From Agrobacterium genomosp. 13 str. CFBP 6927 (lineage in GTDB: Bacteria; Pseudomonadota; Alphaproteobacteria; Rhizobiales; Rhizobiaceae): 64,000 nucleotides of DNA. Positions 1-9,125 of this stretch are shown one piece after another. A program made the position numbers and the translations under genes. A model generated the notes under the pieces. It saw nothing but the letters and a program-made list of their open reading frames with translations. It was not told the origin of the DNA and ran no database searches. Positions within the stretch are counted from its first letter, which is position 1. Every line of letters begins with the position of its first letter. Location: positions 1-64,000 of the forward strand of contig LT009757.1 of NCBI GenBank assembly GCA_900012615.1, written 5' to 3'.

Positions 1-453
1 CAGCCAATGCGTTTCGGAAAAATAGAGAGGTCCACCACAAACCAAATTCCATCTCTCCTCCAGTCATTGCCAGAGAACGTTCCCTGTCAGACCCCGAAAT
101 ATCAGCGCGACGTCTTCCCTTACAATCGGCGCTGGTTCAGCTTCAAAACCGAGATTTCTCCGGTTCATCGCGGAACAGGGTTAGTGTAGGGCAAGACCGA
201 AGGGAGGGGATGAATGGGTAAATAAATTCTTGGAAAGATATATAAAACAAAGAAATTTAAGAAAAAATACGCGCGTTGAATCGAACTAAGTCACCAAATG
301 GCATCTAAAAAAAATCAAACCTACACCCTAGCGATCTGCGAAAATATAACTCTTCCGCCAGATTAGTATCCGTTTGTAAAGTCGTCGGTAATCGGCAACG
401 GTAGCGCCCAGAACAAGTTAGCGCAATTGTGTGATAGGAGCACCGAAAAACGA
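1..453. other. Gene-free AT-rich flank of the RT island
   Basis: No convincing coding frame is seen here; the one short frame near the left edge has no recognisable protein features. Base composition is clearly AT-richer than the DNA to the right of 2900, matching the adjacent RT/SLATT genes, so this is probably part of the same acquired segment. A run of eight A at 307-314 (eight T on the minus strand) lies about 140 nt past the RT stop and could end that transcript, but I see no strong hairpin directly before it. Defence RTs often have a cognate noncoding RNA beside them, so this flank is one of two places it could lie. Confidence 0.4.
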
Positions 454-1767
454 TCAGCTCGTAGGCGTCATGTCTTTGAGAAGATCACTAACTTCCCGCT
501 TTATGTACCTTTTGAAAGTCTTACGTATTTTCTCTTCAGTCCAATCTCGAACTTCGTCAATACTTATTGCTTCAAAATCGGCGATAAACTGCATCATTTG
601 ATCGATAGTGTAATCATCAAAACGCGGAATATATTTTGTTTCTGCGACATTATATTTGATTTCATGGAAGGTTTTAACGAATGTTTTAGGCTTTCCATAT
701 TTTTCGAAACCCGCCTTCTTCCACAGTCGACCCACAAAGCGATCCAACCGCATAAGTTGCTCTTTATCATCCGTCATCGAAAAGTAGAACATGGAGCCGT
801 ACCGCTTACCATTGACGAAACATCCTGTGATTTTCAGGTTCAAGCGCCGAACTTGTCGACGGTCGGCCGACTTGTATTTGGCCGCCGTAACAACAGAGAC
901 CAGATTCTCCATAATATTTCGGTACGAACTCTTCCTAATTGAAACTTTGTCTGGCGTCAGGTGGTAGCCAAGATACTCCACCCCTCCAGAAAGCAGTTCA
1001 ATCTTGGTTTTGCTGCCGGGTGTCGGAGAATGACAAATTAACCCAACCTTTGCCAATCTTCTCATCATAAAGTCCAGGTTAGTGCTAGCATTCTCCGTTT
1101 TGCATATGATGAGGATGTCGTCGACGTATCTGTAATATTCGTATTTACCGTGAGCCTCCTCATCAATCGGTATCATGTAGATCGATGAAAGGACATTAGA
1201 AATGCTCAGCCCCTGAGGTACACCTCTATTGTTAGTTCCGCTCGCCCCGGTCGACGTCCGGATCGCCGCAGATACAACCGATAAGAGTTTTCGGTACCGC
1301 GTCTTACGTCTAAGACGTTTGAGCAACTCCTCATGAAGCAAAGATGGAAAGAAGTTCTGCACGTCCAACTGCACGAACGAGTAGTCATCTGACAACGGCT
1401 TAATATAAGCTTTTATCTCCGCAATATACTGGTGAGCCAGAGCGGGCTTGGCTTCTGTGAAGATCGCGGACAGCGAATTGTTTAACGCGCGCAGACAAAC
1501 TCGGTCTCTGACCCCCGCAATGGATATTTCACGAGGCGCTTTTCCCGCTCCCTTAAGCACTAGTCGCTGCTTGTATGTCGTGAAACGGTACTTTTCTTCG
1601 GCAATGTTTTTCCTGATCAATGCAATCTCTTGATCAAGATTTTTCTCGAATGCAGCAGGATGGATACCATCCCTTCCAACGGTGCCAGACTGCGAGACTC
1701 TGTCGTGGAAAATAGCGATTAAATTACTAGCAGAGAACTGTGCGTCAAAAATCTCTTTTGGAGTCAT
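454..1767 (-). CDS. Defence-type reverse transcriptase (UG/Abi/DRT-like)
   Basis: Predicted 437-residue RNA-directed DNA polymerase. Core RT motifs are in order: QLDVQNFF with the first catalytic Asp at residue 135, GVPQG at 182-186, the catalytic YVDD at 214-217, and YLGYHL near 265-270. The N-terminal part (about 30-100, with RDGIHPAAF and the RDRVCLRALN segment) is typical of group II-like bacterial RTs. There is no maturase/HNH domain and no group II intron RNA around it, so a mobile intron is unlikely. A C-terminal extension of about 165 residues is basic and helical. The start chosen is the ATG that overlaps the stop of the SLATT gene as ATGA, giving translational coupling; a longer frame would overlap that gene by about 80 bp. 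SLATT_5-type membrane proteins are known RT partners, so an abortive-infection role is inferred. Family assignment to RT is secure; the exact DRT/UG class is not. Confidence 0.93.
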   Translation of the reverse strand: MTPKEIFDAQFSASNLIAIFHDRVSQSGTVGRDGIHPAAFEKNLDQEIALIRKNIAEEKYRFTTYKQRLVLKGAGKAPREISIAGVRDRVCLRALNNSLSAIFTEAKPALAHQYIAEIKAYIKPLSDDYSFVQLDVQNFFPSLLHEELLKRLRRKTRYRKLLSVVSAAIRTSTGASGTNNRGVPQGLSISNVLSSIYMIPIDEEAHGKYEYYRYVDDILIICKTENASTNLDFMMRRLAKVGLICHSPTPGSKTKIELLSGGVEYLGYHLTPDKVSIRKSSYRNIMENLVSVVTAAKYKSADRRQVRRLNLKITGCFVNGKRYGSMFYFSMTDDKEQLMRLDRFVGRLWKKAGFEKYGKPKTFVKTFHEIKYNVAETKYIPRFDDYTIDQMMQFIADFEAISIDEVRDWTEEKIRKTFKRYIKREVSDLLKDMTPTS

Positions 1768-2354
1768 GATAGTAGCGATCCACAAAACAACGGTAAAAGC
1801 AGAAATGCTACTGGCCCCAAAAACAATATTGCAAGCAAACCCCAATAAATTGTCGCGCGTAGAAAGAAGGAAAACGCCATCAAACCTGTGTATTTTAGTT
1901 TCTCTCCGCCGTTGGTGAGAGTTTTTCCTTCCAGAAGAAGGTGGTTGATCAATAGGTCAGCATAGTCATTCGGCGCATGATTTGGGAAATCCATCATGAT
2001 TTCTCGATATTTCTTCTTCTTCTCTTGATCCGCTAAATCTTCATCATGGAGGCTTTGGAGTTTCAAGTAGCATTCACGGAAAGCGGATGCTCTGGCTTCC
2101 AAACGGAAACCTGCAGCAACAAGCGAGGCTACGAGTACGATCACCGAGGAAGAGAGATTGATCTTATCAAGAGCGGGATAGGGCTTGCTGTAGAAATCGC
2201 CGAAGATAGAAAGAATGACGGAGAACAAAGAGTAATATGTGACAGCAAGGAAAGATACATTCTGGTTCCTAAGAGCTTTCCGCTCCGCAATTATACGAAC
2301 CCTAGATGTGATCCAGATAGTGTCATTGATAGTAGACTTCGCAATTTCTTCCAT
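1764..2354 (-). CDS. SLATT-domain two-TM membrane protein, RT partner
   Basis: A 196-residue protein with the layout of the SLATT family (SMODS and SLOG-associated two-TM effectors). An N-terminal helix carries a TSRVRIIAERKALRN-like segment (about 16-30), followed by two hydrophobic segments at about 33-52 and 66-83, a charged helical stretch (100-120), and a third hydrophobic stretch at about 158-190. SLATT proteins are predicted membrane effectors that damage the envelope when triggered by a partner sensor; the SLATT_5 branch is known next to reverse transcriptases. The ATG at 2354 is preferred over an upstream start because a GGGGAG ribosome-binding sequence lies just before it. Its stop overlaps the RT start by ATGA, so the two proteins are expected to be made together. 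Codon use and GC are unlike the rest of the window, suggesting transfer. Confidence 0.8.
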   Translation of the reverse strand: MEEIAKSTINDTIWITSRVRIIAERKALRNQNVSFLAVTYYSLFSVILSIFGDFYSKPYPALDKINLSSSVIVLVASLVAAGFRLEARASAFRECYLKLQSLHDEDLADQEKKKKYREIMMDFPNHAPNDYADLLINHLLLEGKTLTNGGEKLKYTGLMAFSFFLRATIYWGLLAILFLGPVAFLLLPLFCGSLLS

Positions 2355-2695
2355 GCTCTCCCCATCAAATTGGTGGTGCGGACGCAATATCTCAAAGCAA
2401 CTAAACACTCACGAAGGAATGTAGCAAACGCCAAGGACAAGCCTTGCTCTATGACCGTGACCCATAAATGAGCCAGTGGTTTTACCCACTCCGCCCGCAC
2501 CGTCTTCTATCTAATCCGGATCACGGAGAATTTCAACTTCTAGGAGTACATTAGAAGCGCGTTATCCAGCGCGAAACCAAAAACAGCATATCTTGCCGAC
2601 AAAAGAGTTTGCCACGAGGAGTATATAACTGACCGACGTGGAGAGAGCAGTCGTTGCCTGCGTTTACTTAATACCCTTAAAATCTCCGCCTCGCT
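2355..2695 (-). promoter_or_regulatory. Leader of the SLATT-RT operon; possible ncRNA site
   Basis: No gene is supported. On the minus strand this is the 5' leader and promoter region of the SLATT-RT operon. It contains short potential hairpins: a CAAGG/CCTTG pair near 2432-2446 and a GCGC/GCGC pair near 2556-2572. Defence RTs that work from a dedicated noncoding RNA commonly have it upstream of the operon, so about 300 nt of non-coding leader is compatible with one. I could not identify a conserved ncRNA or a template repeat by eye. Confidence 0.3.
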
Positions 2696-2786
2696 AGTGT
2701 AGCCACTCGCAACGATAGGCGAGGACCGGCTCGGCAAATCCTTCAGTCTGTAACGATCCCCATGCACGAGGACATCAGCGCTGCCA
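2696..2786 (-). pseudogene. Broken duplicate of the cyclase gene 3' end
   Basis: This 91-bp stretch matches 4281-4372 almost base for base (a handful of substitutions and one missing base). The matched target is the last ~30 codons of the nucleotidyl cyclase gene 1.6 kb away. Translated on the minus strand it gives GSADVLVHGDRYRLK, then a frameshift caused by the deleted base changes the remaining codons. Similarity stops abruptly at both ends, so it is a fragment and not a working gene. Together with the intact copy it forms a direct repeat around the MFS gene at the right border of the RT island. Confidence 0.85.
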
Positions 2787-2918
2787 GGAGGCGCGCATGC
2801 CCTTCCGAACATTGTGCGATGCACAAATTTCGGAGGAATAGGCATGAAATTCGGATTTTTAGATACATATCATCCGAAAAAATTCGTCTAAAACTCTCCC
2901 AACTCAAGGAGAGAGACC

Positions 2919-4127
2919 ATGACGGACACGACATCAGAATTTGATGGGTCAACAATTGCCCTGGAGGCCGCCGAGGAACCCGCGTGGACGGCTGCGACCT
3001 GGTTTGCGGTTCTTTCGATGGCGGCCACCAGTTTTGCGCTGGTATCGGCCGAGTTTCTGCCAGCGGGATTGTTGACGCCCATGGCGCGCGATCTCGGCAT
3101 TACCGAGGGTACAGCCGGGCAGGTTGTGACGGCGACAGCTTCCGTGGGCGCCGTAACAGCGCTGCTGAGCAATGTTCTCATCGGCAAACTGAACCGCAAG
3201 ACCGTGCTTGTCGGTCTTAGCGCGCTGGCGATCGGCTCCAACATTCTCGCATCAGTTGCTGCTGATTTCTGGCTATTGTTGGTGGGCCGGGCTGGACTGG
3301 GGATTGCGCTCAGCGGTTTCTGGGCGCTTTCGGTTGCGGTTGTGGCGCGGCTCGTTGGCGCGAATTCGACCGGGCGCGGCATGGCTATCGTCACCCTCGG
3401 CGTTTCGCTTGCCACCATCGCCGCCCCTTCAATGGGCGCTTTGATCAGCGACTGGCTGGGATGGCGCATCGCCATGTCGATGACGGCGGGACTCGCCATA
3501 ATTGCCATGCTGCTGCAGATACTCAGCCTGCCATCGCTGCCGGCAAGTACGAGCAACAGTCTTTCCGATGTTTTCCGGCTGACGCGGCGGCGCAGCGTTC
3601 AACTGGGGATGCTGGCGATTCTGTTGCTGATGACGGGGCATTTTGCCGGTTCGGTCTATGTGCGTCCCTTCCTCGAACAGGTGACGCTGCTTGACACCAC
3701 GCCGATTGCTCTCGCCCTGCTCGGCTTTGGCGTCGCTTCCGTGATCGGCAATGTGCTGGGGGGCCGGATGGCTGACACCAGTATCCGCCTCGCACTTATC
3801 GTTACCGCCGCCCTGATGGCATTTGCGACGATCGCCCTCGTTGTCTGGGGTGTTCATACCGGTGCCGCATTTGCTCTCGTCGCCCTTTGGGGTCTCGCCT
3901 TCGGCATGGCGCCTGTGGTGCTGCCGACCAACCTTTCCCGCGGCGCACCCGATGCGCTGGAGGCAGCAGGCAGCCTGATGGTCGTTTCCTTCCAGGTGGC
4001 CATCAGTATCGGTGCGGTTTTTGGCGGTTATATCGTCGATTCCTACGGGGCTACTGCTCCGCTGGCGCTGACCGCGATACTGGCTGCATCCACGGTGGCT
4101 CTGGCCCTGCTGCAGCGCCCAGAGTGA
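2919..4127 (+). CDS. MFS drug/metabolite exporter, DHA1 type
   Basis: A 402-residue major facilitator superfamily protein with about twelve hydrophobic helices. The first helix region reads FALVSAEFLPAGLLTPMARDL, resembling DHA1 exporters of the NepI/AraJ/sugar-efflux kind, and the loop between helices 2 and 3 has LIGKLNRKTVLVGL, a version of the MFS loop motif. It should export small molecules by proton antiport across the inner membrane; the substrate cannot be told. The ATG at 2919 has an AAGGAGAGAGACC ribosome-binding site. The gene stands alone between two copies of the cyclase 3' end, which could allow its loss by homologous recombination. Confidence 0.87.
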   Translation: MTDTTSEFDGSTIALEAAEEPAWTAATWFAVLSMAATSFALVSAEFLPAGLLTPMARDLGITEGTAGQVVTATASVGAVTALLSNVLIGKLNRKTVLVGLSALAIGSNILASVAADFWLLLVGRAGLGIALSGFWALSVAVVARLVGANSTGRGMAIVTLGVSLATIAAPSMGALISDWLGWRIAMSMTAGLAIIAMLLQILSLPSLPASTSNSLSDVFRLTRRRSVQLGMLAILLLMTGHFAGSVYVRPFLEQVTLLDTTPIALALLGFGVASVIGNVLGGRMADTSIRLALIVTAALMAFATIALVVWGVHTGAAFALVALWGLAFGMAPVVLPTNLSRGAPDALEAAGSLMVVSFQVAISIGAVFGGYIVDSYGATAPLALTAILAASTVALALLQRPE

Positions 4128-4132
4128 TCACG

Positions 4133-4165
4133 GCCTTGCCGCCTTCCATCATCTGGAGGCAAGGC
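4133..4165 (+). terminator. Hairpin after the MFS gene
   Basis: An imperfect stem pairs CCTTGCC-GCC-TTCCA with TGGAGGCAAGG, starting a few bases after the MFS stop. There is no long T tract, so its role as terminator is plausible but not certain. Confidence 0.45.
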
Positions 4166-4278
4166 GTCTGATCAAGCGCAATTGTGCTGGCGTTGCCTGC
4201 GCCAGCACACGGGTTTCCACGCTTGCCGTTACCGGCAGGCGGTTTCGTCGTGATCGCATGTGGTGCGAGCACCCGTTA

Positions 4279-5091
4279 TTAGTGCAGCCACTCGCAACGA
4301 TAGGCGAGGACCGGCTCGGCAAAGCCTTTCAGCCTGTAACGATCCCCATGCACGAGGACATCGGCGCTGCCATATTCCTGCAGGGTCTTGTCCGATATCA
4401 GAATCTGATCGCTCTCGGCGGCGGCGCAAAGCCTTGCGGCCAGTTGCACGGTCGTGCCGAAGAAATCATTGCTGTCTTCGATTGGCTCACCACAATCCAG
4501 CCCGATGCGGATGTGGATGGGTTCGCCGCTATCGATGTTGTAGCGATGGAACTCGCGCTGGATATCAATGGCGCAATCCACCGCAAATGGGATGGAGGCG
4601 AACACGGCCATGATGCCATCACCGGTGTGCTTGACCTCCCGTCCCGAGCGCCGCCCCAGACAGCCACGCACGAGAGCATCGTGCGCCCTGATGAGTTCTG
4701 CCGCCATACGATCGCCGAGGCGGGCCGTCATTTCGGTTGAACCGACAATATCCGTGAACAGGATCGCGCGGTGGCCAGCATCCATTTTTTTCGTGGCGGC
4801 CACGACCGCCACGGGATCCTGTATTCGCCCGAGAAATGCTTCTACGGCCGACAGGGCGACTTCCACCACTTCACTGGCGATAAAGCCGTGCGCTTCCCGA
4901 TGCACGCATTGCGCGGTTTCAGCATCCGGGGCATCGATGAGGCAAAAGGCGGTGCCGCGCCTTTCATCAAACCAGTAGGTCAAGAACCTGACGCCGTACT
5001 GATCCTGGATGTTGAGATCTTTAAGGTGTGCCGCGGCGATATCCGCCGCTGAAACTCCGGCAAGCTCGTGCCGGTCCATGAAGATAGGCAT
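4279..5091 (-). CDS. DUF4242-class III adenylate/guanylate cyclase
   Basis: A 270-residue protein in two parts. Residues 1-80 (MPIFMDRHEL..., with HREAHGF near 64-70) match the small DUF4242 ferredoxin-like fold related to nickel-binding SCO4226-type proteins. Residues 105-270 are a class III nucleotidyl cyclase catalytic domain: the metal-binding Asp lies in ILFTDIVGST (D114) and the second in KHTGDGIMAVF (D158). There are no membrane segments, so it is soluble. It probably makes cAMP or cGMP, with the N-terminal domain as sensor. Fusion of DUF4242 to a cyclase is common in rhizobia, but the ligand is unknown. It is transcribed alone. The 3' end is duplicated at 2696-2786. Confidence 0.9.
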   Translation of the reverse strand: MPIFMDRHELAGVSAADIAAAHLKDLNIQDQYGVRFLTYWFDERRGTAFCLIDAPDAETAQCVHREAHGFIASEVVEVALSAVEAFLGRIQDPVAVVAATKKMDAGHRAILFTDIVGSTEMTARLGDRMAAELIRAHDALVRGCLGRRSGREVKHTGDGIMAVFASIPFAVDCAIDIQREFHRYNIDSGEPIHIRIGLDCGEPIEDSNDFFGTTVQLAARLCAAAESDQILISDKTLQEYGSADVLVHGDRYRLKGFAEPVLAYRCEWLH

Positions 5092-6451: not shown

Positions 6452-6910
6452 TCAGATGCGCCGGGCCTTGATCGTGTTCATGACGAAGCTGGTCTCGATG
6501 GTATCGACGCATTTCAGCTTGGCGATCTTCTCCTTGATGAAGCGCTCATAATCCTCCAGCCCGCCGCACATGACCTTCAGCATATAGTCCTTCGAACCGG
6601 TGACGAGGTGACATTCGAGAACCTCGTCCCAGTCCAGAACGGCTGCTTCGAACATCCGGATTTCGTCATCGTGCTGGCGGCTGAGGCGGATGGAGGCAAG
6701 GGCGGTCATGGTCCATCCCTCGATGGCCGGATCGACGACCGCGGAATAACCCTTGATCACCCCGATCTCTTCCAGCCGTCGCAGCCGGCGCAGGCAGGCG
6801 GATGCCGACAGGCCGACCCGCTCGGCCAGTTCATTGTTGGTGATCCTTGCATCGGCGGATAATTCTTTCAGAATCCGTCTATCGACCGTATCTGCAATTT
6901 TCTGCGACAT
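6452..6910 (-). CDS. Lrp/AsnC-family transcriptional regulator
   Basis: A 152-residue regulator of typical Lrp length. The N-terminal helix-turn-helix is at about 8-60 (DRRILKELSADARITNNELAERVGLSASACLRRLRRLE), followed by a RAM ligand-binding/oligomerisation domain with the VTGSKDYMLKV strand. A longer frame starts 39 bases upstream, but MSQKIADTVDRRIL matches the usual Lrp start. It is divergent from the PLP lyase gene with about 126 bp between starts, and so very probably regulates it in response to an amino acid, as MdeR does for methionine gamma-lyase in pseudomonads. Confidence 0.92.
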   Translation of the reverse strand: MSQKIADTVDRRILKELSADARITNNELAERVGLSASACLRRLRRLEEIGVIKGYSAVVDPAIEGWTMTALASIRLSRQHDDEIRMFEAAVLDWDEVLECHLVTGSKDYMLKVMCGGLEDYERFIKEKIAKLKCVDTIETSFVMNTIKARRI

Positions 6911-7036
6911 AAATGGGAATTCTCCGCAATATATTGCTTTATCAGACATGGATGCGCTTCAGAATGCAAGGTATTTCGGCTGGATTGCATGTAAGCTGCG
7001 CAGAGTTCAAAGCCTGTCGAGGAGGATCTACCGGAC

Positions 7037-8320
7037 ATGACCGCACCACATCCGTCGAAAACCCATATCGGCAACCACGCCCTGCATCCCGAAACCCAGA
7101 TGCTGAACTACGGCTACGATCCGGAATTGTCTGAAGGCGCCGTGAAGCCGCCGGTGTTCCTGACATCGACCTTCGTCTTCAAGTCGGCGGAGGACGGGCG
7201 CGACTTCTTCGATTATGTCTCCGGGCGCAAGGAGCCACCGGCGGGCCGGGGTGCAGGCCTCGTTTATTCCCGCTTCAACCATCCCAATAGCGAGATCGTC
7301 GAGGATCGTCTCGCCGTTTACGAGCGCACGGAAAGCTGTGCGCTGTTCTCGTCCGGCATGTCCGCCATTTCGACGACGCTGTTCGCTTTCGTGCGGCCGG
7401 GCGATACCGTGCTCCATTCCCAGCCTCTCTATGGTGGCACGGAGACGCTGCTCGCAAAGACCTTCCACAATTTCGGCGTTTCGGCGGTGGGTTTCGCCGA
7501 CGGTGTCAGCGAGGCCTCGGTAGTGGCCGCCGCGGAAGAGGCGATGGCGAAAGGCAGGGTGTCCGTCATCCTCATCGAGACACCCGCCAATCCGACGAAC
7601 AGCATTGTCGATATCCCGATGATCAGCCGTGTCGCCGACATGATCGGCCAGAAGCAGGGGCACAGGCCGATCATCGCCTGCGACAACACGCTTCTCGGCC
7701 CGGTCTTCCAGCGCCCCATCGATCACGGCGCCGACATCTCGCTCTATTCACTGACAAAATATGTTGGCGGCCACTCCGACCTCATTGCCGGGGCAGCGCT
7801 TGGCCGCAAGGATGTGATGAAGCAGGTGAAGGCGTTGCGCGGGGCGATCGGCACGCAGCTCGATCCGCATTCCTGCTGGATGCTGGGACGCTCGCTTGAG
7901 ACGCTGCAGATCCGGATGGAGCGGGCAAACAGCAATGCCCAGCTGGTGGCCGAATTCCTGAAGGCGCATCCCAAGGTCGAGAAAATCCATTACCTGCCGT
8001 TCAACGATCCGGCATCCCCGGTTGGCAAGGTGTTCGCAGATCAATGCACCGGCGCGGGATCGACCTTCTCCTTCGACATAACCGGCGGGCAGGCCGCGTC
8101 TTTCAAATTCCTCAATGCCCTCACCATATTCAAACTCGCGGTCAGCCTCGGCGGCACGGAATCCCTCGCCTCCCACCCGGCAACCATGACACATTCAGGT
8201 GTTCCGGCGGATGTGCGCCAGCGCATCGGCGTGCTCGATTCCACCATCCGGCTGTCCATCGGCATCGAACATCCCGACGATCTGATCGCCGACCTCGCCC
8301 TCTCCCTGGATGCGGCCTGA
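7037..8320 (+). CDS. PLP-dependent Cys/Met-metabolism gamma-lyase
   Basis: A 427-residue member of the cystathionine gamma-synthase/methionine gamma-lyase family. The PLP-binding Lys is K241 in [12 protein letters not shown]; the conserved [17 protein letters not shown] segment (77-93), CDNTLLGP (215-222) and [17 protein letters not shown] near the C-terminus are present. The enzyme should cleave or exchange at the gamma carbon of methionine or O-substituted homoserine. The divergent Lrp regulator suggests a catabolic methionine gamma-lyase-like role over biosynthesis, but sequence alone does not fix this. A GAGGAGG ribosome-binding site lies 12 bases before the ATG. Confidence 0.9.
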
Positions 8321-8417
8321 GGAAGAGGCAAAGCCACATTCCCGTTGATTTCGACTCCCGAAGCAACCGATGGGAACGCCGAACAAAACGATGGCAAGGA
8401 TGATATTTGCTTTGCTG

Positions 8418-8478
8418 TCGCCCCGCGCGCATGGTACCGGCATCAGCAATGGCCGACGGTATCGGAGGCGCGGGGCGA
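8418..8478. other. Long structured hairpin in intergenic gap
   Basis: The 301-bp gap between the lyase and the sigma-factor gene has no supported gene. It contains an 11-bp perfect inverted repeat, TCGCCCCGCGC (8418-8428) with GCGCGGGGCGA (8468-8478), and inside it a second pairing of GGTACCG with CGGTATC. The folded RNA would be about 60 nt long. There is no following T tract. It may be a terminator for the lyase gene or a small structured RNA. Confidence 0.45.
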
Positions 8479-8621
8479 TCCCGCAAAACCAGGGCCGTCG
8501 CTTCGCATAGTCTCGAATTCGGCACCGATTACAGATAATCGGCCGGCGACTGCATTGTTCGACAGACCGACTGCCCGGGATTTCGGGCAGGCAGGGTGTC
8601 GATGACCGGAAGGCAAGGCTC

Positions 8622-9125
8622 TTGAGTTGGGATCTGCAGGAATTGTTCCGGCTATATGCGAAAGGCATCGTCAGATCCCTGCGCAGCAGAGGCATAGATT
8701 CCGAAACAGCGTCCGATCTGGCGCAGGATGCGTTTTTGAAGGTGCTGGCATCACCGCCACCGGCCAGCGCCGCTTCCCACAATCCCAAATCCTACCTTTA
8801 TACCGTGGCGCGCAATCTCAGCATCGACCACTATCGCCGCGAGCGCAGCCTGCTCCGTGTCGATCTGCCGCAAAATGCCTTCGATGCCATCATCGATCCG
8901 TCACCATCCGCGGAAACCATCGTTTACGACCGCCAGCGGCTGCAGCTGGTGGAGCAGGCCCTGGCGGAGCTGCCGCGCCGGGTGCGCGAGGCCTTCCAGC
9001 TGCACCGCATGGGGGGCCTGACCATAAGCGAAGTGGCCCAGAAGCTTGGCATGTCCACCACCCGTACCTGGGTTTTGATCCGCGACGCCTACGAACATAT
9101 AGAGGACCGCCTGAACGGTCTTTAG
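8622..9125 (+). CDS. ECF sigma-70 factor, FecI-like
   Basis: A 167-residue extracytoplasmic-function sigma factor. Region 2 covers about 8-75 (ASDLAQDAFLKVL and YLYTVARNLSIDHYRRE), and region 4 about 105-160 (LPRRVREAFQLHRMGGLTISEVAQKLGMS). It is first in a sigma-FecR-TonB receptor series, so it should be held or activated by the next gene product and direct transcription of the receptor operon when an iron-siderophore is bound outside. The start is a TTG preceded by GGAAGGCAAGG; no in-frame ATG is suitable. Confidence 0.92.
   Translation: MSWDLQELFRLYAKGIVRSLRSRGIDSETASDLAQDAFLKVLASPPPASAASHNPKSYLYTVARNLSIDHYRRERSLLRVDLPQNAFDAIIDPSPSAETIVYDRQRLQLVEQALAELPRRVREAFQLHRMGGLTISEVAQKLGMSTTRTWVLIRDAYEHIEDRLNGL

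Follow-up and report, generated by a model that had tools for sequence, protein, structure and literature searches.

The window analysed here is the 64,000-base stretch G000:C2:1-64000 of an Agrobacterium genome, and its base 1 is the end of contig C2 (2,231,699 bases). On the minus strand, close to that end, lie a reverse transcriptase (RT) gene (454..1767), a gene for a SLATT_5 membrane protein (1764..2354) and a predicted ncRNA (2375..2501), so that the system, as read from its sequence, is tripartite: ncRNA, SLATT and RT. Both genes are AT-rich relative to the surrounding chromosome, as the initial annotation of this DNA had claimed; G+C is 45.2% in the RT gene, 43.5% in the SLATT gene and 52% in the ncRNA vs. 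60.1% for 5-64 kb of the window.

The RT has 437 aa and ends in a serine, Ser437. Its profile match is to RT_UG17 of PADLOC-DB (PDLC03754; E 2.6e-142, 472.7 bits, profile positions 1-428 of 429), with 120 bits for the runner-up family and 107.5 bits for the next DRT model, Drt3a. We rested the UG17 class (Drt10 RT) on profiles because in a tree of 44 RTs UG17 does not form a single clade (2 changes; long branches); in that tree the window RT clusters with L024 and, at 100/99, with L029, L031 and L105. Residues D135, V215, D216 and D217 are invariant across 60 aligned RTs and the catalytic YVDD of the window RT is intact. Pfam reports RVT_1 alone (2.7e-19) and, at E 0.001, neither an HNH nor a maturase domain, and both the YVDD motif and the lack of such domains had been seen correctly in the initial annotation, whose proposed search of the RT against UG/DRT profiles gave the UG17 match above. 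The NCBIfam models for group II, Drt3a, Drt2, Drt4, retron St85 and AbiA all score far below cut-off. For DRT3 in particular, Drt3a reaches 91 bits against a cut-off of 200, and the partner gene encodes SLATT, with no second RT. Relatives align from ATG 1767, which we take as the RT start; the leftmost start in the ORF list, TTG 1845, is for that reason unlikely.

The membrane protein (196 aa) has RTasSLATT as its best PADLOC-DB family (E 7.7e-68, 225.7 bits) and matches SLATT_5 in Pfam (PF18160, E 5.7e-29), the accession given in the initial annotation. Its ATG at 2354 is preceded by GGGGAG; the leftmost start in the ORF list, GTG 2408, is unlikely given this GGGGAG and the ncRNA at 2375-2501. 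The SLATT stop and the RT start share an ATGA overlap, so the coupling of the two genes over 454-2354 stands as first described. The description of the protein as "two-TM" holds for two N-terminal hydrophobic spans (about residues 32-54 and 61-90) and misses a third, C-terminal one (157-196) in the hydropathy plot. Of 90 loci, window and near-copies counted, 66 have a SLATT gene adjoining the RT, and in the excerpts of PMC8934634 UG17 RTs adjoin SLATT_5 in 76-82% of cases.

The closest relative found is L024 of Rhizobium sp. BK316, whose RT is 81% identical and whose elements have the same order, ncRNA, SLATT, RT. The local DNA alignment between the two (71%) covers window bases 454-2502, reaching from the stop codon of the RT gene as far as the opening bases of the ncRNA, and in the 5.2 kb compared these three elements only are conserved; L024, unlike the window copy, sits within a 193-kb contig, and no local alignment extends past 454 and 2502. 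At E <1e-60, UG17 was found in seven of 394 family genomes, the window's own included, and in the 39 genus genomes the window's own was the only strong match. The same-species genome G026 had no strong match, and RT traces in the other 38 genus genomes were weak (best 40 bits), one of them, L002, being the Drt3a of L188 discussed below. In an annotated phage collection there was no match to P0001 or to the E. coli RT, and L107 gave no E. coli match; UG17-like RTs are present on IMG/VR contigs. On plasmid b of Rhizobium tropici CIAT 899 (L023, 4724-5011) a DRT10 operon adjoins a gene annotated as encoding a Shedu SduA-domain protein.

The upstream RNA and the limits of the unit

Directly upstream of SLATT, a conserved block was evident in 12 upstream regions, aligned as A2: ten Rhizobiales loci including the window, one from Azospirillum and one from a viral contig. 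RNAalifold on A2 gave a central stem of 10 pairs and four hairpins, with compensatory changes in 14 of 31 pairs. In the window this corresponds to a putative DRT10-type ncRNA of 127 nt (2375..2501, minus strand; fold z -3.22) with the central stem, the four hairpins and a template loop. When a longer stretch (2355-2560) was folded, it was not stabler than shuffles (z -0.66), and window bases 1-5000 contained no Rfam match.

A covariance model, R1, built from the 12 A2 sequences and run on 91 sources gave 25 matches with E no higher than 1, comprising the 12 training rows (among them the window, at 120 bits), four copies of L023 (L025-L028) and nine held-out loci of UG17 type (L037, L038, L039, L044, L048, L050, L052, L082 and L087); 66 of the 91 sources were unmatched. 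In eight of the nine held-out loci the ncRNA precedes the RT start by 595-643 nt, compared with 608 in the window, the exception being L082 (1,955 nt); in L087 a SLATT gene was not found and the RT frame is broken. Across 21 sequences, 96.9% of cells are paired and 27 of the 31 pairs show changes on both sides. The covariation score of 0.610, which is favoured by an alignment fitted to the structure, compares with 0.245 for shuffled alignments (none of 500 shuffles reaches 0.610), and controls with slid partners are nonetheless far lower, at most 0.125.

A second model of 21 rows, R2, added nine sources for a total of 30 of 86. Among its matches is an E. coli RT and SLATT locus, L148 (E 7e-8), whose RT terminates in Tyr444, the priming residue stated for Eco1DRT10 in the excerpts of PMC12632851, and we infer that L148 is Eco1DRT10 or close to it. 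R2 also matched 15 of 53 viral loci, some on contigs that overlap with the earlier set. It left 56 of the 86 sources and 38 of the 53 viral loci unmatched, and with them the Eco3-type locus L267, the sole one among 302 to carry the published Eco3 template and A'. Because R1 and R2 miss most sources, and R2 misses L267 as well, the kinship of the window ncRNA to the Eco3 ncRNA is one of layout only. Folded on its own, L267 (z -5.08) has the same order as the window: central stem, hairpins, SL5, template loop and closing stem.

The predicted template loop with 2 nt of its closing stem lies at 2383..2404 (minus strand; UUAGUUGCUUUGAGAUAUUG followed by CG); with respect to SL5 and the closing stem, its position is much as in an Eco3-type RNA. 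Within it, a candidate A-B-A' arrangement is UUGC-UUUGAGAUA-UUGC, for which the cDNA unit would be TATCTCAAAGCAA; an alternative, UUG-AGAUA-UUG, would give TATCTCAA. The two UUGC copies are 13 nt apart, near the Eco3 positions of A and A', and are kept in L024, L031 and L023/L033 while B differs; the 8-nt alternative fails in L024 and L031. In 29 loops, a free repeat search (duplicate L111 left out) found a mean longest A of 3.45 vs. 3.28 in shuffled loops (p 0.18), and a search with Eco3 geometry (identical-loop rows L023 and L111 left out, the L267 loop put in) found 2.28 vs. 2.08 (p 0.23). For an A of 4 or more in the Rhizobiales subset of 10 loops, p was 0.03, uncorrected and from loops that are not independent. 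Since neither search beats shuffled loops, we dropped A-B-A' as proof of a telomerase-like template and keep the repeat unit as a prediction. The RT itself offers another point of comparison: its last residue is Ser or Tyr in 77 of 85 RTs (Ser 62, Tyr 15; window and near-copies counted; five of 90 loci dropped, so that each RT counted is >380 aa and has a stop), a prevalence that would be expected if a C-terminal hydroxyl primes synthesis.

A putative promoter at 2508..2536 on the minus strand (TTGAAA, a 17-nt spacer and TAGATA, or 16 nt and TTAGAT) ends 6-7 nt before the ncRNA start. TTGAAA is found again upstream of the ncRNAs of several relatives, and over 29 loci the consensus score shows a modest rise (mean 7.69 vs. 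6.63 shuffled); the output of a generic promoter scan did not contain this site. The unit first delimited as 454-2354 thus held both genes and stopped short of the end, which we place at about 2501 with the ncRNA or 2536 with the putative -35 element.

Assignment to DRT10 and a possible mechanism

We regard it as highly probable that 454-2501 is a DRT10 (UG17) anti-phage system, in which telomerase-like repeat synthesis would govern SLATT. DRT10 is already described, and what we add is the ncRNA, the limits of the cassette and its telomeric setting. The pairing of UG17 with SLATT was named DRT10 in a 2025 preprint that demonstrated its action in phage defence (PMC12632851, here and below as excerpted) and in which all three parts of the E. 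coli system were needed and priming and repeat synthesis were shown; SLATT was required, and how it acts was left unshown (PMC12632851). The literature searched mentions DRT10 in two preprints only, 66 times in that one and 5 times in one on DRT3. An RT and SLATT defence operon of a numbered DRT type had thus been proposed rightly in the initial annotation, and the number is 10; the ncRNA had been missed.

The published systems and the window share the RT family, the SLATT partner and the C-terminal Ser, as well as an ncRNA upstream of SLATT with a central stem, four hairpins and a template loop after SL5 (PMC12632851). They differ in RT length (437 aa in the window, 456 in Eco3) and in the repeat unit (a candidate 13 or 8 nt vs. 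9 nt in Eco3), and the window branch, unlike published DRT10 in the excerpts of the preprint, is alphaproteobacterial and subtelomeric on a very probably linear chromid. A tyrosine recombinase accompanies two of three E. coli DRT10 systems (PMC12632851); none was recognised by eye in the ORF list near the window unit. DRT9 and DRT2, class 2 UG systems, likewise make repetitive cDNA on an ncRNA template, and the DRT9 ncRNA resembles that of DRT10 in layout (PMC12632851), but their RT profiles give the window RT just 57.6 (Drt9) and 73.6 bits (Drt2) and their products differ from that of DRT10, being poly-A and a de novo gene. Telomerase (TERT), for its part, has like DRT10 a template with an alignment segment and a boundary hairpin, and a kinship of the two was proposed in PMC12632851.

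How might the window copy work? One transcript starting near 2501 would carry the ncRNA and then the SLATT and RT messages. By analogy, the RT would bind the ncRNA, begin DNA on its own C-terminal Ser437 and copy the template loop that separates SL5 from the central stem, and pairing of A with A' would let it slip back and add repeats in the manner of telomerase. The resulting protein-linked, tandem-repeat ssDNA may govern the SLATT membrane protein. We infer from sequence and analogy the single transcript, all activity of the window copy, the repeat sequence and the SLATT step. In healthy cells the repeat DNA would most likely restrain SLATT, and on infection its loss would free SLATT, with membrane damage and abortive infection as the outcome. 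We favour restraint because the tandem-repeat cDNA of Eco3DRT10 is constitutive and falls during infection (PMC12632851), and the authors of that preprint raise the option that the cDNA holds SLATT in check. The same observation makes doubtful the earlier proposal that the RT makes a DNA signal which triggers SLATT on infection.

Could the sign nevertheless be the opposite, with infection raising the repeat DNA and the DNA turning SLATT on? The cDNA of DRT2 and DRT9 does rise on infection, and nucleic-acid control of membrane effectors is called an emerging theme in the discussion of the same preprint (PMC12632851), but the behaviour of the Eco3DRT10 cDNA runs the other way, and we consider this order of events unlikely, at perhaps a third of the weight given to all others. 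It is very improbable that the unit is a decaying, inactive, AT-rich passenger dumped in a subtelomeric region: its base composition, the variable segment in which it lies and the lack of a strong match among the remaining 38 genomes of the genus would suit such a history, but the frames are open, the catalytic residues intact and the ncRNA pairs kept, and the RT is more alike L024 in protein than the unit is in DNA (81% vs. 71%), as under purifying selection. We give almost no credence to a retron or group II intron RT that happens to stand beside an unrelated SLATT, since the kinship on which it would draw, and which bears out the earlier "group II-like" as distant relation and not as membership, is 119 bits for TIGR04416 against a cut-off of 300 and 54 bits for the St85-type NF038233 (the sole retron model among the six NCBIfam matches listed) against 235, compared with 472.7 bits for UG17, and RVT_1 stands alone in Pfam and SLATT recurs beside the RT.

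The end of a probable linear chromid and its defence genes

The DRT10-type unit lies next to what is very probably the end of a linear chromid. Bases 1..226 of the window are a terminal repeat with an inverted copy (81%) at C2:2231050-2231276, 423 nt from the other end of C2, and the other contig of the genome carries a telomere resolvase gene (PF16684, E 9.3e-38), a location on another replicon that is reported for some Agrobacterium in the excerpts of PMC13293297. Among the 39 genus genomes the repeat occurs at 15 places in 12 genomes, 14 of them at most 702 nt from a contig end; the exception, in G028, is internal (E 5e-4). The inverted terminal repeat, the resolvase and the end-bound repeats in the genus make it very probable that C2 is a linear chromid; its left telomere is then probably located about 0.4-0.7 kb past window base 1. 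Short matches on both strands link ends L228, L232 and L233 to telomere-proximal bases of L187, L193 and others, as expected of a hairpin-telomere palindrome. We set aside a telomere role for the DRT10-type RT, with the resolvase gene present and no matching repeats in the genome, where a search for either predicted repeat found no exact tandem pair of units.

The segment from the terminal repeat to the first common gene (window 1-2805) varies between strains. At L184, L186 and L187 the flanking genes match the window at 93-97% from 2805-2810 onward, there is no match to the window between the terminal repeat and 2690, and the variable segments have their own, differing ORFs and Pfam content. 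A 93-bp duplication (about 95%) at window 2695-2786 and 4280-4372 is the 3' end of an ORF that by eye resembles adenylate cyclase, and is found once in L184, L186 and L187; lying just before homology resumes at 2805, it is perhaps the scar of the DRT10 insertion.

With PADLOC families and Pfam, a defence system or candidate was found at six of 14 telomere-proximal ends, namely the window and 13 other repeat-bearing ends: DRT10 in the window; DRT3a+b (Drt3a, Drt3b) just inside the terminal repeat at L188 (G005:C20, 1156-4561); SIR2-HerA at L190; a type II methylase with Vsr and a restriction enzyme at L193; an R-M system akin to it at L195, where the methylase was scanned alone and a second REase_II member is among the matches listed (25 of 88 families); and the SIR2 candidate PDC-S25 at L186. 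Weak matches (PifA-like at L194, RT-protease-like at L196, mad2 at L189) were left uncounted. The DRT3 pair at L188 gives the genus a second example of RT-based defence at a telomere. At the right end of C2 (L196) are a DUF4238 protein and a protein weakly akin to RT-protease XI (7794-9071 and 6743-7747), and L185, of the same species, has the same ORF layout.

Among the 97 proteins of 24 internal 5-kb blocks, eight matched a PADLOC family, seven of them mad3 and one mad8. Because Pfam shows seven ABC-transporter ATPases among the same 97 proteins, we take the mad3 matches to be these, not paired protein by protein, and count 0 of 24; were all eight mad matches counted as defence, the contrast with the ends would largely vanish. 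As counted, six of 14 vs. 0 of 24 gives a Fisher p of 0.0011 for related genomes that are not independent. Four more telomere-bearing ends (L222, L228, L232 and L233; 10 of 15 ORFs scanned) had no strong match and one weak PDC-M03A, which brings the count to six of 18 (p 0.0035), or to five of 17 (p 0.008) with the two R-M ends counted once; ten further contig ends, in which telomere sequence was not detected, stand outside these counts. As related genomes are not independent, we treat the enrichment as a lead. In linear chromids of the Agrobacterium type, the stretch just inside the terminal repeat may be a hot spot at which anti-phage systems turn over, with hairpin ends as sites of exchange; we judge the chances of this to be even. 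A narrow literature search returned nothing on defence at linear bacterial ends, and titles and abstract openings held no such claim for Agrobacterium linear chromids.

What we describe is in all likelihood a complete DRT10 from an alphaproteobacterium, with the ncRNA and a record of RNA covariation of its own. This copy provides a testable, distant DRT10 template against which the A-B-A' rule can be checked. That a telomerase relative should lie beside a bacterial telomere with an unrelated end mechanism is probably coincidence. If the subtelomeric finding is true, the ends of linear replicons would be a place in which to seek defence systems.
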